Shown: positions 4,021 through 18,564, counted from the first letter of the stretch. The stretch is DNA of 25,942 nucleotides from a virus (IMGVR_UViG_3300022202_000005:1-25942); one strand, 5' to 3'. Notes: generated by a model not told the origin, from the sequence alone. Numbers and translations: made by a program.

Positions 4021-5067
4021 CTATAATCCTAGCTCAGCAGCAAGCTCTTCATTTGACACATCTGCAGCAGAAGATGTAGTTGTTTCAGCAGGGAGCGTAA
4101 CTGGTTCCGATGTCACTGGTTCCGATGTCATTACCTCCATATCACCAACTAGTCCAAGATCTCCAAGTCCAAGATCGTCAGTTATAGCAGTTGCATCAGC
4201 TTCGGCTTTAGCTTTTGCATCAGCTTCGGCTTTAGCTTTTGCATCAGCTTCGGCTTTAGCTTTTGCATCAGCTTCGGCTTTAGCCTTTGCATCAGCTTCG
4301 GCTTTGTCACTGGGCTGCACAGCTAATGCTGTCGCAGAAGTTCCACCAATAATATCATTAACTTCCTCAGACGCTCTAACTTTATCGATGGCTGGCATAA
4401 CCTTTTCTGGCAAATATCCACCGAAACCAAAAATCAATTTTGGAAAGTCACAAGTAAGATCGAATCCTACAAGGGTTTTGATTGAGCCTACAGGAATACC
4501 TTTAACTGATAGATTTTTTACAAATAGCCCGAAGTTTTTTAGACTGGCAGCCGGGATTTTTAAACTATGGACACCGAAGTCCGGCACGAATACTGCCAGA
4601 ATTTTTGTGTCTGAACATGCTTTCCCTTTAGTAGAATTACCATTCTGATCGGTACCTGAACCAAATGCATTGAGTGGGCACGTTTCACACGACTCACTTT
4701 GAGGGGTATTTACTTCAGGGTGTGGCTTCAGTGTATCTTCTGAAAAACAGTCCGGTGCTTTCGCATCTTCATCAGGATTATATGCACCTGTATACCAGGT
4801 TTTGCGCAGCTCTCTTTTTGCTCTGAGAACTATGACTGGAAGGTATGTATTGCCTTCATCGTCCGCCACCATTTTTGCAGGCGGGTATGGCTTTTCTTCA
4901 CCATTCCCATCTACCAGCTTAAAAGTTTTGGCAGAGATTTTTACTCTCGGCGGTACGCCTGTCGAGATACCACAACCAGCATCTGCATTTGCAACTTTGG
5001 CTGCATCCGGGTTACGAATGTGGGCCGGTACGTTTTCGGCTTCAGGGATTACCATCACATTACTCAT
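4021..5067 (-). CDS. Phage protein with four-Cys site and EADAKAKA repeats; possible ssDNA-binding or replication protein
   Basis: The 348-aa protein has three parts. Residues 1-160 include C107, C127, C130 and C151 in the pattern C-x19-CxxCP-x20-C with a GKAC element, a probable zinc site. Residues about 160-250 look like a compact beta-rich domain. Residues 257-291 are an Ala/Lys/Glu repeat (EADAKAKA), followed by an acidic, Thr/Ser-rich tail ending in EELAAELGL. Acidic C-terminal tails are typical of phage and bacterial single-strand-binding proteins, and the gene sits in a replication cluster, so an SSB-like role is plausible; this is inference. The start at 5067 overlaps the previous gene by 8 bp. 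A terminator follows the stop. SEPVT is also repeated twice near the C-terminus. Confidence 0.8.
   Translation of the reverse strand: MSNVMVIPEAENVPAHIRNPDAAKVANADAGCGISTGVPPRVKISAKTFKLVDGNGEEKPYPPAKMVADDEGNTYLPVIVLRAKRELRKTWYTGAYNPDEDAKAPDCFSEDTLKPHPEVNTPQSESCETCPLNAFGSGTDQNGNSTKGKACSDTKILAVFVPDFGVHSLKIPAASLKNFGLFVKNLSVKGIPVGSIKTLVGFDLTCDFPKLIFGFGGYLPEKVMPAIDKVRASEEVNDIIGGTSATALAVQPSDKAEADAKAKAEADAKAKAEADAKAKAEADAKAKAEADATAITDDLGLGDLGLVGDMEVMTSEPVTSEPVTLPAETTTSSAADVSNEELAAELGL
4193..4306 (-). repeat. Tandem 24-bp repeat (4.75 copies) encoding EADAKAKA
   Basis: On the plus strand the unit gcatcagcttcggctttagc plus tttt repeats from 4193, 4217, 4241, 4265 and (partial) 4289. The copies are nearly identical; the fourth has one change (gcctttgc). 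It stays in frame and encodes an alternating Ala/charged helix like that of TolA. Near-identity of the DNA suggests recent expansion by slippage, so copy number is likely to vary between relatives. Confidence 0.95.
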
Positions 5068-5308
5068 TAGTTTTGCTCCTTATTTTTTCTGTTTTAGATG
5101 TAGGAACTACTCGTACACCATCGTTATCTGATATCAATAATATGCCTATGTATTTGGCAAGAGTACTAACTTCGTCTCTCAACAAGAAAACTTCTTCTTG
5201 GAGATTTGCTACGGCAGCCAAAGCATTTCGATGCTCACTATCTAACTTAGTCTGCAAGTCTTCAAGACGTTTTACTTCATCATCTGAAGATGGGCTACGA
5301 TCAGACAT
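5060..5308 (-). CDS. Small coiled-coil protein (82 aa)
   Basis: Residues about 10-55 show a heptad-like run of Leu and Ala among Glu, Lys and Arg (VKRLEDLQTKL, ALAAVANLQEEVFLLRDEV), which predicts a coiled coil. The ends are Ser/Asp- and Lys-rich. No enzyme motif is visible. The start codon overlaps the stop of the upstream gene as TAATG, and the stop overlaps the next start by 8 bp. The three genes 5949-4021 are therefore translationally coupled, and the protein may be a partner of one of its neighbours. Confidence 0.75.
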   Translation of the reverse strand: MSDRSPSSDDEVKRLEDLQTKLDSEHRNALAAVANLQEEVFLLRDEVSTLAKYIGILLISDNDGVRVVPTSKTEKIRSKTNE

Positions 5309-5949
5309 TACGCCCTCCGTATCTTAACACCTTTAAAGCGCACATACTTTACGCCATCAGGACTTGTCTTGCCGTCCTCATGTCGCTGCTTGACAGCTGA
5401 TTTAGATACACGATTTTCGAGGAAGTGTTTATGTGCTTCCCAATCAGCATGTACCCACGTTTTGAACTTATCCGGATCCTCGACAGTCGCTGTGTCTTTC
5501 CAGTCAAAGAATACAGTACCGGCACCAGCCCCTAATTTCTCAACACCGAGCTTTTGCATCATACCTTGCAGATAATTTTCCCTCTTGGTTTGGAATTCCT
5601 TAAGGGCTTTTACTCTTTCCTTGTGAACTTTTTCTAATGCTGAGATTTCATCCCGAGTTTCAATGTACTTGGAGATGACTGCATCAGGAGTAATTCCACT
5701 AGGACTTGTTGGTTGTGTAGCGAGGGTAACCACCTCCTCAGTCTGTACCTGATCAGGCAAGGTAGCACCTTCTTTAGGCACACACTTATGCTGCCTGGGT
5801 TTCCCGGCTTGCGTCCATGTTACAAGCTTACCACAAAGGTTGCACGGTTTTCTTTCCGGGCCGGTTTTCTCTGGAGGTGTCGAAGGTTTTTCTGCATCAC
5901 CTGAAGGTGTTACTCCTTCAGATAACTCATTCATCTGGGCTGCGTCCAT
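5308..5949 (-). CDS. Conserved phage protein with N-terminal zinc finger and central coiled coil (213 aa)
   Basis: Residues 35-57 contain CNLCG, a spacer of about 16 residues and HKC, a probable zinc finger. Residues about 90-135 are a charged helix likely to form a coiled coil. The C-terminal 80 residues (GAGTVFFDW, TVEDPDKFKTWV, VSKSAVK, then DGVKYVRFKGVKIRR) resemble a domain found in many phage proteins of unknown function, often near recombination genes. It is the first gene after the palindrome-flanked promoter at about 6.0 kb, with a near-consensus SD (AGGAG) upstream. A role in recombination or DNA binding is inferred from context only. Confidence 0.75.
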   Translation of the reverse strand: MDAAQMNELSEGVTPSGDAEKPSTPPEKTGPERKPCNLCGKLVTWTQAGKPRQHKCVPKEGATLPDQVQTEEVVTLATQPTSPSGITPDAVISKYIETRDEISALEKVHKERVKALKEFQTKRENYLQGMMQKLGVEKLGAGAGTVFFDWKDTATVEDPDKFKTWVHADWEAHKHFLENRVSKSAVKQRHEDGKTSPDGVKYVRFKGVKIRRA

Positions 5950-15630: not shown

Positions 15631-18564
15631 TCACATCCTCGCTTTGAATTTTTCTAAATTCTCCAAGTCTCCCCACGATTTACCTATCATGGCATCGACC
15701 GGGAACTTTATAGGTAAGTCAATCCCCCATGCTGCTTTATAGGGAAGATTCGAGAGTTTATCTAAAAACATCTCTGATGCTGCGATTGCATTGTCTTTTG
15801 GAAAGATAAAAAACAATCCGTCGTGGAGTTCGTAGTAAAAATATCCTCCGAACTGAGCAAGCATGTTTCGGGCTACAGCCAAGGCGAGATATTTTTGGTC
15901 TCCGCCGGTACCTTGGATTGGGTAGTTGATGGCTGTGCTCTCCATGGGCCATTTAAAGCGCCCTGCCCAGTTGTCTTTCAACTGCACCCTTCGTCCTGCA
16001 AATGTCTCGGCGTAGCCTAATTCCTTACATTTTGCGATCTGAGAAGCCCAATAACCTCCCACTCTCCTACCTGGAGGTCCTCCCACTCCTGGGTACGACT
16101 CTTTGTAAATGGCCTGGGTGTGGCTGATAAATTGCTCATCAACGTCGAGTTCGTAATCTATTCGAGCTTTTGTTGTGGCAGTTCGGGCACTTACGCGGTA
16201 CTGATACGATAAGTTGCAGTTAGAAACTAAACATCCAGATACAGTGAAGCGATGGCGGGGTCCGGCGTTGGCAATATCGTACACCCTTTTGGTTTGGTGC
16301 TTGGTTTTTCCCACCGCTCTACTATTTTTTCGATGGTTAGTCCTTTCGATACGAGGTTCATAATTACACCTTCTGCATATTTCACATGAGGGTATAAAGT
16401 TCTCAGTACATGGTATACGTGTTTTCTCTGAATTTGTACCTCTTTGTACTTCAGAAACTTGTTTGTTCGTTTGTTGTTCATGTTCTCTGTCTTGGTGATC
16501 AGTCGCAAATTTCCAGGTTCGTAATGACCGTTGTTGTTGATGCGATCTATCTCCAATCCTAAATACGTCGAATGTTGTAGATTGTTCAACATATATGCAA
16601 TAGCTTCGGCAACAGTATTGAATTTGAAGAGTATCCCTCTGGCTCCATAGTTCGCATAGTTTTGGTCGTTGGGGTTCTCGCATCTCTGCTTCATTGCATT
16701 GCATCTTTTCTGTAGACGCATTACAGCTTTGCTGCTTATAATTGCATGACCTCTTTTGGAATGTTGCTCTACAGATGCACAACTTTTGCATTGTGTAGAT
16801 CTGCCCTTGATCAAATTCTGTGGATAAATCCACAAAGCTTCTCCGCATGTGCATTTGCAATGTACACATACTTCGTTTCTCTTGCCTTTCCGTTTGATAT
16901 TTATGCTGTCTATAATTAATTTTCCGAACTGGGTACCTACCATCTCCGGTGATAGTGAGACTATAACCTTTCTTGGCTGCTTCGCCGAATCTAACTTTGC
17001 CGTTTTCCGTATATACTTCATGGTCTTTTGTTGCTGTAAGTCCTTCATACGTAATAACCTCTTTATATCCTTGGTTAATAACTCCTTCATGATTTACCCA
17101 GTCTATACCATCCCATACTTGATCGTCAAGTGAAATTTGCTCTATAGGTATAAGTCCTTTATCTGTTAAAACAAGCTCACCTTCAGCAATACAGAATTTC
17201 CCACACTTACGATCATTCTCTGCTACATCATCTCCTGATTTAGCGAGGATGGCAAGCTGCTTGTAATCTCGTTGTGCAATCTGGGCACCCATGTAGCTAT
17301 GAGCATCTTCACCTGGTGCACAAAGAGAAAGCATGGTTTCATCTCCAGAGGCTACAGCCATCCATCTGAACTCCTGCCCAGCAAAGTCAAATTCTGCAAG
17401 GTAATAGCCCTCTGGTGGTCGAATTAGTCTGCGATACACCTGGCCGCGCTTCCACTGATGAAGTGCTATCCCTACAGGGACTTTTACTTTTTTCTCTATC
17501 CATTCGTCGGGCTTTCTTTTATAAGTTTTCAGAACTTTTCTTTTACATGTATCACTGGAAGCATATGTGATCCTGGATGTATATGTGGAAAAGATTTTAG
17601 GTTGAGGTCTCACAAACCCATCACCGTTGTATTCCAAACTATTTATTGTACCGATGGCGTACTTTTTCCTGTTGCCTTTGGCTTCCCTGAGCTTTTTAAG
17701 AATGCCACATCTCGGGTCAATTAATGCTAGGTCGTAAAGAGCATATTTATCGGTAGAGGGAAGTTGTGTTTTCTTAGAAAATCTCTCTGCAACCATCCCC
17801 CATGTTTCATATATAAGTTTTTGTAGCTGCTTAGGGCTTCCGATGTTTACACCTCTAGCCTCTGGAGCAACAGATATTAATTCTCTGTAAATCTCTATGG
17901 CTTCTTTACCTAAAATGTCTGCCAGTACTTGAGCATCTTCTTTAGTAGACTTTATCCCAAGCACTTTGTTTTTTGCCATCATAGGGATGCACCTAGCTTC
18001 GATACGAGCCACGTTGCGTTGGCGTGAGCCCAACATCCTCCAGAACTTTTCTGCGAGCCTGGCGGTCCACAGTGCGTCCATTTCGTTACGATGAAGGAGA
18101 AGCTTCATACTATCATCATCTGTAGCTGCAAAATCATCGAAATCCTTAAATCCGGCTTCATCCGGATAGAACTCATGCATTGCTGATTCAAGGGAGTAGC
18201 TTTTACGCTTAGACTTCGGAATATCATCACCCTCTGGTTCTACTACTGCATGTCTCCACAAGAGCATAGCATCCAACCATTTGGCTTGGAAAACTTCATT
18301 CTCCAGCCCGATAGCAATACACCACGCAGCATCAAAAGCTACATTCCATCCAGTTATGTATGAATTTGACATTATCGCGTAGTTAAGCATTTTCTTAACT
18401 TGATTTGGTTCTGGGTAAAGTCTTCCAGCAGTTTTGTCTCCTACAGAAATACTTGCTGCTTTTATTCTCGCTTCTCCTGTAAGGCAGCGGAACGGTTGCA
18501 ACATGTATTCGTCGAGATCCCCTTCGGTCTCAAGGTCGAAGCCAACTATCGATAGATCTGCCAT
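15631..18564 (-). CDS. polA: Family A DNA polymerase with 3'-5' exonuclease, interrupted by an intein
   Basis: The 977-residue precursor should splice to a 652-residue replicative polymerase. Residues 6-15 (SIVGFDLETEG) are exonuclease motif I. Polymerase motif A is YYLAEFDFAGQEFR (catalytic Asp393), motif B (O-helix) is RKCGKF...CNLSYQYR with R452, and motif C is YELHDGLFF (His914, Asp915). The intein occupies residues 458-782, exactly within motif B, so the enzyme is inactive until spliced. The start at 18564 (MADLSIVGFD) was chosen over 18609 because GAGAAGG lies upstream and the longer form would overlap the XRE gene. The stop is followed immediately by the 47-aa gene. Family assignment is firm. 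Confidence 0.95.
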   Translation of the reverse strand: MADLSIVGFDLETEGDLDEYMLQPFRCLTGEARIKAASISVGDKTAGRLYPEPNQVKKMLNYAIMSNSYITGWNVAFDAAWCIAIGLENEVFQAKWLDAMLLWRHAVVEPEGDDIPKSKRKSYSLESAMHEFYPDEAGFKDFDDFAATDDDSMKLLLHRNEMDALWTARLAEKFWRMLGSRQRNVARIEARCIPMMAKNKVLGIKSTKEDAQVLADILGKEAIEIYRELISVAPEARGVNIGSPKQLQKLIYETWGMVAERFSKKTQLPSTDKYALYDLALIDPRCGILKKLREAKGNRKKYAIGTINSLEYNGDGFVRPQPKIFSTYTSRITYASSDTCKRKVLKTYKRKPDEWIEKKVKVPVGIALHQWKRGQVYRRLIRPPEGYYLAEFDFAGQEFRWMAVASGDETMLSLCAPGEDAHSYMGAQIAQRDYKQLAILAKSGDDVAENDRKCGKFCIAEGELVLTDKGLIPIEQISLDDQVWDGIDWVNHEGVINQGYKEVITYEGLTATKDHEVYTENGKVRFGEAAKKGYSLTITGDGRYPVRKINYRQHKYQTERQEKRSMCTLQMHMRRSFVDLSTEFDQGQIYTMQKLCICRATFQKRSCNYKQQSCNASTEKMQCNEAEMREPQRPKLCELWSQRDTLQIQYCCRSYCIYVEQSTTFDVFRIGDRSHQQQRSLRTWKFATDHQDREHEQQTNKQVSEVQRGTNSEKTRIPCTENFIPSCEICRRCNYEPRIERTNHRKNSRAVGKTKHQTKRVYDIANAGPRHRFTVSGCLVSNCNLSYQYRVSARTATTKARIDYELDVDEQFISHTQAIYKESYPGVGGPPGRRVGGYWASQIAKCKELGYAETFAGRRVQLKDNWAGRFKWPMESTAINYPIQGTGGDQKYLALAVARNMLAQFGGYFYYELHDGLFFIFPKDNAIAASEMFLDKLSNLPYKAAWGIDLPIKFPVDAMIGKSWGDLENLEKFKARM
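16219..17193 (-). mobile_element. Intein in polymerase motif B (325 residues)
   Basis: The intein begins at Cys458 of the precursor (CIAEGELVLTDKGLIPIEQI, block A), has block B at TATKDHEVY (Thr512, His515), and ends with block F RVYDIANAGPRHRFTV (760-775) and block G CLVSN followed by extein Cys783. The N-terminal Cys, terminal Asn and +1 Cys are all present. The penultimate residue is Ser instead of the usual His. In the polymerase frame, residues about 541-751 have no intein or endonuclease homology and are rich in Gln, Arg, Cys and Thr. That stretch is the +1-frame image of a homing endonuclease gene. The whole 975-bp unit is the presumed mobile element. Splicing itself is inferred. Confidence 0.93.
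16227..17048 (-). CDS. HNH-type homing endonuclease nested out of frame inside the intein
   Basis: The open frame begins at 17090 (287 codons) and is in the +1 frame relative to the polymerase. The start at 17048 was chosen because AAAGAGG lies 9 bp upstream; 17090 has no SD. Numbered from 17090, the core runs from about residue 50 to 260: VGTQFGKLII, a zinc site CVHCKCTCG plus CKSC (75-104), MKQRCENPNDQNYANYGARGI (133-153), the HNH core LEIDRINNNGHYEPGNLRLI (179-198), NMNNKR, and a C-terminal DNA-binding-like segment (LVSKGLTIEKIVERW). It would cut an intein-less polymerase gene to drive homing. The TAG stop (16227-16229) lies 8 bp before the intein ends, so the gene travels wholly within the intein. 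The first 35 codons after 17048 and the last 25 overprint conserved splicing blocks. Confidence 0.9.
   Translation of the reverse strand: MKDLQQQKTMKYIRKTAKLDSAKQPRKVIVSLSPEMVGTQFGKLIIDSINIKRKGKRNEVCVHCKCTCGEALWIYPQNLIKGRSTQCKSCASVEQHSKRGHAIISSKAVMRLQKRCNAMKQRCENPNDQNYANYGARGILFKFNTVAEAIAYMLNNLQHSTYLGLEIDRINNNGHYEPGNLRLITKTENMNNKRTNKFLKYKEVQIQRKHVYHVLRTLYPHVKYAEGVIMNLVSKGLTIEKIVERWEKPSTKPKGCTILPTPDPAIASLYLDV

Follow-up and report, generated by a model that had tools for sequence, protein, structure and literature searches.

We report the computational analysis of a viral gene for a family A DNA polymerase (PolA) that is interrupted by an intein, the DNA of which also encodes, in the +1 reading frame, an HNH endonuclease. 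The gene lies on the minus strand of IMGVR_UViG_3300022202_000005, a single virus record of metagenome type, 25,942 bases in length and referred to here as the window. This arrangement had been put forward in an original prediction made from the sequence of the window, which saw in it an intein whose homing endonuclease is a separate, overlapping gene. Here we describe the locus, compare it with its relatives and weigh the ways in which such a layout could arise and be expressed.

The polymerase intein and its nested gene

The open reading frame (ORF) of the host gene matches Pfam DNA_pol_A (E = 3.5e-28), as well as the PHROG DNA polymerase, and the intein occupies the polymerase motif where the inteins of its relatives also sit (Table 1). 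It starts CIAEGELVLTDKG, has TKDH as its block B and finishes VYDIANAGPRHRFTVSGCLVSN, after which a Cys comes next; the C-terminal blocks read VYDI...HRFTVS, followed by Asn325 and Cys+1. The intein blocks and the Cys, Asn and extein Cys that had been claimed for the polymerase frame are all in the sequence, so that the frame holds the full set of features of a cis-splicing Hint intein, namely Cys1, blocks A, B (TxxH), F and G, a terminal Asn and Cys+1. Across 54 relatives, the splice residues and Hint blocks are invariant or nearly so. The penultimate residue of the intein in the window (16219-16224) is Ser, and is His in nearly all of the listed relatives.

A model of the intein, built with an alignment of relatives as input, has confident ends (residues 1-80 and 300-325), with a predicted local distance difference test score (pLDDT) of about 97, and these ends are predicted to adopt the Hint fold. 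In the PDB, the model best matches inteins or intein-like domains (lowest E = 2e-4), and curated intein profiles match the window intein weakly. The linker that lies between the two ends is predicted to be unstructured.

The nested gene was found exactly where it had been placed, with an ATG at 17048 that is backed by a Shine-Dalgarno (SD) sequence and a stop codon (16229-16227) that falls 8 nt short of the end of the intein; the energy of the SD duplex in the window is -6.5 kcal/mol. Its product matches the phage HNH endonuclease family PHROG 374 (E = 2.8e-35) and carries the conserved core, the combination by which we recognise an HNH homing endonuclease from its sequence, and its model is that of a folded protein, with a mean pLDDT of 85. 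A Pfam search with the window endonuclease gave no match, and searches of NCBIfam and of PDB sequences found nothing useful.

Table 1. Coordinates of the polymerase gene, the intein and the nested endonuclease gene in the window
Feature	Position	Strand	Remarks
Family A DNA polymerase ORF (host gene)	18609-15631	minus	992 aa; uninterrupted across the whole intein
Intein, polymerase frame	17193-16219	minus	975 nt, 325 aa, Cys1 to Asn325; basis: sequence, relatives and predicted Hint fold
N-terminal part of the splicing domain (residues 1-85), with blocks A and B	17193-16939	minus	TKDH at 17031-17020; invariant columns among relatives
Shine-Dalgarno-like AAAGAGGT of nested gene	17064-17057	minus	lies in intein codons for Lys-Glu-Val
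Nested HNH endonuclease gene, +1 frame	17048-16227	minus	273 aa plus stop; own SD and ATG
Polymerase-frame reading of endonuclease core (linker)	16908-16351	minus	open, unconserved, predicted disordered; pN/pS 1.35, pLDDT mostly below 50
Endonuclease Cys pairs C66, C68, C87, C90	16853-16779	minus	probable zinc site; conservation of 90% or more among 67 nested relatives
HNH core DRINNNGHYEPGN of endonuclease	16547-16509	minus	no variation at D168, R169, Y176 and N180 among 67 nested relatives
C-terminal part of the splicing domain (residues 300-325), with blocks F and G	16296-16219	minus	ends Ser-Asn; usual ending is His-Asn
Cys+1, first C-extein residue	16218-16216	minus	basis: sequence

Conservation of the layout and selection on the two frames

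A scan of viral contigs and of isolate and metagenome-assembled genomes gave about 200 loci, some of which are the same contig fetched twice. Once near-duplicates were removed the inteins numbered 91, of which 74 have an endonuclease and 17 are mini- or remnant forms. The 74, less one partly deleted copy, make up a set of 73 non-redundant elements that includes the window and is drawn from phages, prophages, isolate genomes and metagenomes. The HNH gene stands at exactly +1 in all 73 and in frame in none. Close and distant relatives share the nested layout, and the same arrangement is present in the polymerase gene of the Streptococcus phages Javan255 and Javan101 and of the Gardnerella phage AB1. 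With the HNH gene at +1 throughout and the PolA ORF continuous, the layout differs, as had been argued, from both the in-frame and the split arrangements of intein and endonuclease. Among the inspected phage records that carry annotation, from Streptococcus, Gardnerella and Salmonella, the nested gene is left unannotated.

One locus, in the genome of Eubacterium plexicaudatum (L219:4001-4926), was left out of the set as frameshifted; the N-terminal part of its intein is divided between two frames, which breaks the polymerase frame and would reflect either an error or decay to a pseudogene. At three further loci a second intein, or the N-terminal part of one, lies elsewhere in the same polymerase ORF (L149:4001-4369 and 4736-5620, L185:3238 and L193:2140).

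The polymerase frame is closed by a stop in none of the 73 elements, whereas 704 stops would be expected from shuffles of synonymous codons. By comparison, the third frame of the same elements contains 1010 stops against 967 expected, and the corresponding frame of the free-standing HNH relatives (n = 22) contains 311 against 350 expected, that is, it is without such avoidance. For the window itself, 50,000 synonymous-codon shuffles with the endonuclease protein held fixed predict 15.1 stops in the polymerase frame, where none is observed, and not one shuffle reached zero; its third frame has 26 stops against 27.5 expected. The avoidance can be read in the codons of the endonuclease, as none of the 86 that stand before a codon starting with AA, AG or GA ends in T, compared with 52 of the 186 elsewhere. 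The claim that the frame is open beyond chance is thereby upheld, the synonymous shuffles, together with the third-frame and free-standing controls, ruling out chance openness.

Selection on the two frames was analysed in 21 non-redundant copies of 927 nt, with nucleotide identity down to 57%. In the splicing blocks, including the last, the fastest-evolving position is the third codon position of the polymerase; in the endonuclease core, polymerase position 1, equivalent to position 3 of the endonuclease, changes fastest. A finer profile, from 37 copies, places this switch in the wobble position between intein nt 151-180 and 181-210, shortly after the start of the endonuclease (intein nt 146), and its reversal near nt 870. 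Over the core, the ratio of non-synonymous to synonymous change (pN/pS) is 0.31 in the endonuclease frame and 1.35 in the polymerase-frame linker, and in the splicing blocks the polymerase-frame ratio is about 0.3. The endonuclease frame is under purifying selection, as the original prediction would have it. The contrast between the two core values indicates that the linker is kept only as an open frame, and the further proposal, that the linker frame too is under selection, therefore holds for its openness and fails for its amino acids.

Expression, mobility and competing explanations

These observations are very probably to be explained by a mobile intein made from two overprinted frames, one giving a cis-splicing PolA precursor and the other a free-standing, internally initiated HNH endonuclease for homing. 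Ribosomes in the polymerase frame would make a single PolA precursor, in which the Hint-forming ends (residues 1-85 and 300-325) would fold around a disordered linker and the insert would be spliced out via Cys1, Asn325 and Cys+1. Other ribosomes would initiate at the internal SD and ATG just before block B and read the +1 frame, giving a free-standing HNH enzyme with its probable zinc site. The target of this enzyme would be the insertion site in polA alleles that lack the intein; when the site is cut, repair would transfer the entire intein, together with short flanks, into the cut allele (homing). In the middle of the element, selection maintains the endonuclease as a protein and the polymerase frame only as one free of stops.

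A conserved Tyr codon and the codon next to it (TAT-GNN) supply the start ATG, and Glu-Val codons (GAG-GTN) supply the SD. With relatedness ignored, the conserved Tyr is coded TAT in 40 of 47 copies, compared with 22.4 predicted by the codon usage of the extein, and the SD Glu is coded GAG in 40 of 47, compared with 22.2. Several copies without the usual ATG have an SD-backed ATG at intein nt 104 or 134 instead. The endonuclease might alternatively arise when ribosomes shift out of the polymerase frame, in which case it would be fused to the N-terminal part of the intein; frameshifting is known in phages, and some copies have an endonuclease frame that stays open far upstream of the ATG. We consider this unlikely, since 42 of the 73 copies have a stop in the endonuclease frame no more than about 45 nt before the start, this frame is unconserved upstream of the start, and the start and SD codons are biased. 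Because of the upstream stops and the unconserved upstream frame, internal initiation is favoured as the probable route.

The remaining explanations concern the nature of the insert and the quality of the record. The polymerase-frame linker might be a functional domain in its own right, with the endonuclease frame secondary to it, and the linker does stay open and has many Arg, Gln and Cys residues. This is very unlikely in view of its high pN/pS, with changes mostly at the first codon position of the linker, its predicted disorder and the existence of mini-inteins that do without it. An insert that is never spliced, and is tolerated as a loop in the polymerase, has a published precedent in the ShiLan element, an out-of-frame HNH gene in an actinophage DNA methylase whose host frame is open; ShiLan has no detectable splicing domain and a GTG start without a detectable ribosome-binding site, and it is believed to remain part of the methylase (Arsenault, Gosselin and Gogarten 2025, PMC11855218). 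The window intein also lacks the penultimate His. Here, however, the splice residues and Hint blocks are all present and conserved, a Hint fold is predicted and the splicing blocks have a low pN/pS in the polymerase frame; nor should a conserved polymerase motif tolerate an unspliced insertion of 325 residues, and we hold an unspliced insert to be highly improbable. Least credible of all is that the endonuclease is in truth in frame and was displaced in the window record by two compensating frameshifts from sequencing or assembly. This is one metagenome-type record and we found no support for such an error, which is excluded because independent relatives, among them records from cultured phages and isolate genomes, share the +1 layout, in all 73 elements and with the signatures of dual-coding selection. 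A group I intron was rejected as a candidate, there being no Rfam match in the window at the gathering threshold and a host frame that is open throughout.

Some Streptococcus phages share 90-94% protein identity over the polymerase region and have no intein at the same site, in keeping with precise splicing of the insert. The insertion boundary reads GCT/TGT in the invaded allele and GCC/TGT in the empty one, with '/' marking the point of insertion. Between PhiSdyV1524 (L008) and the intein-free Javan181, nucleotide identity is 78-86% close to the site, to a distance of 250 nt upstream and 100 nt downstream, mostly 96-100% in the next stretches and lower again further upstream. In the comparison of Javan255 with Javan101, the inteins are 95% identical and about 450 nt of upstream flank are almost identical; beyond this, identity is 68-90%. 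Such a pattern of flanks is what homing with co-conversion would leave and, with the intein-free alleles, it indirectly favours homing. In PhiSdyV1524 a stop interrupts the endonuclease (L008:4140-4916) and the polymerase frame is still open, and mini-inteins without an endonuclease occur at L005, L006, L119, L153 and L156. To judge from their sequences, the degraded endonuclease, the mini-inteins and +1 remnants would fit a homing cycle. Shortened inteins with remnants of a +1 endonuclease were seen at L004:4002-4505, L100, L188, L196, L201 and L204.

Several points weigh against this reading of the element. Splicing, internal initiation, DNA cleavage and homing are steps that we infer, the evidence presented here being computational, and the counts of stops and of codon bias take related sequences as independent. 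Ordinary recombination could also produce the pattern of flanks described above. The mini-inteins keep the ATG in 15 of 17 cases and a strong SD in 13, and some of them carry +1 endonuclease remnants; because the SD and ATG persist in these forms they provide no clean endonuclease-specific signal, and the test against extein codon usage took the place of a comparison with the mini-inteins. A Foldseek search of the PDB with the endonuclease model gave no significant match. Lastly, splicing of the window intein could be slow, because it ends Ser-Asn and not His-Asn.

Other host genes, a second frame and known systems

The +1 family is found in several types of PolA and in DEAD/ResIII helicases (L013, L216, L220 and L221), as well as in a gene with weak similarity to DnaB (L157) and in a large ORF that resembles a terminase (L069). 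In the PolA of the Jerseyvirus group (L009:2316-3212, which is Salmonella phage SLMP1, and L222-L228) the nested HNH gene is in the +2 frame, and the intein lies in the same motif, about 4 codons from the +1 site. Stops are avoided here too, with none observed against 5.5 expected (P = 0.0005), and the splicing and endonuclease parts are recognisably related to those of the +1 family. The Jerseyvirus case may go back to an independent capture or to a register change in an ancestor shared with the +1 family. The HNH query used originally has matches in a total of 155 Salmonella phage records, and many of these carry the annotation DNA polymerase. The terminase-like inteins (the third intein of L069, L230 and L232) have an unrelated HNH gene nested in the +2 frame; their individual stop tests are weak (P = 0.05-0.15), and the label terminase is our own reading of the sequence, Pfam confirming only the intein domains there.

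It is likely, on this evidence, that overprinted endonucleases form a recurrent class of mobile intein, a third route beside in-frame fusion and split halves, that arose at least twice and probably three times (+1 in PolA and helicases, +2 in the Jerseyvirus PolA, and +2 in the terminase-like genes with an unrelated HNH). If so, endonuclease genes can invade the loop of a mini-intein in any frame, and the splicing domain tolerates an almost arbitrary linker.

The canonical bifunctional intein, of which PI-SceI is an example, has an in-frame endonuclease domain between blocks B and F. The window intein resembles it in its Hint splicing domain, in the coding of an endonuclease between blocks B and F, in its apparent mobility and in its conserved site in a replication gene; it differs in that the endonuclease would be a separate protein from another frame, leaving only a disordered linker in the precursor. 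Dassa et al. are said to have described, in 2009, split inteins in which a free-standing gene for the endonuclease separates the halves. Common to these and the window is a separate endonuclease protein from a gene between intein halves, but in the window the host gene and intein form one uninterrupted ORF, the product of which would be spliced in cis. The free-standing phage HNH enzymes (PHROG 374 and relatives) belong to the same sequence family as the nested gene, though they are located outside inteins and show no avoidance of stops in the corresponding frame. The ShiLan type of element, the nearest case in print and noted for phage Applejack too (PMC12613952), shares with the window an HNH gene in another frame of a phage host gene, an open host frame and a patchy distribution that suggests homing. 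In contrast to ShiLan, the window has a complete Hint intein around the HNH gene and an SD-backed start, and for it stop avoidance and dual selection have been measured.

The original prediction had suggested a compact third route for assembling intein and endonuclease. The layout is real; the suggestion is amended to that of a widespread and conserved architecture, with more host genes and a second frame register, and the out-of-frame HNH gene in an open host frame had already been published for ShiLan. A full-text literature search, with most subscription journals and all bioRxiv-only preprints outside its scope, found no paper on a Hint intein whose endonuclease lies in a different frame. 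The overprinted layout, conserved in more than 70 related elements, is a real way to build a mobile intein, and apparently an undescribed one. In such a conserved, dual-coded intein, splicing and homing would rest on two proteins from the same DNA. The elements offer a natural data set of dozens of lineages, several host genes and two frame registers, which bears on the entry of endonucleases into inteins, the linker tolerance of the splicing domain and the maintenance of overlapping genes. Surveys that read the host frame only will label such inteins as endonuclease-free or degenerate.

Elsewhere in the window, a 24-bp tandem repeat of 4.8 copies (4305-4191) lies inside a minus-strand ORF (5067-4021), where it encodes a repeat rich in Ala, Lys, Glu and Asp.

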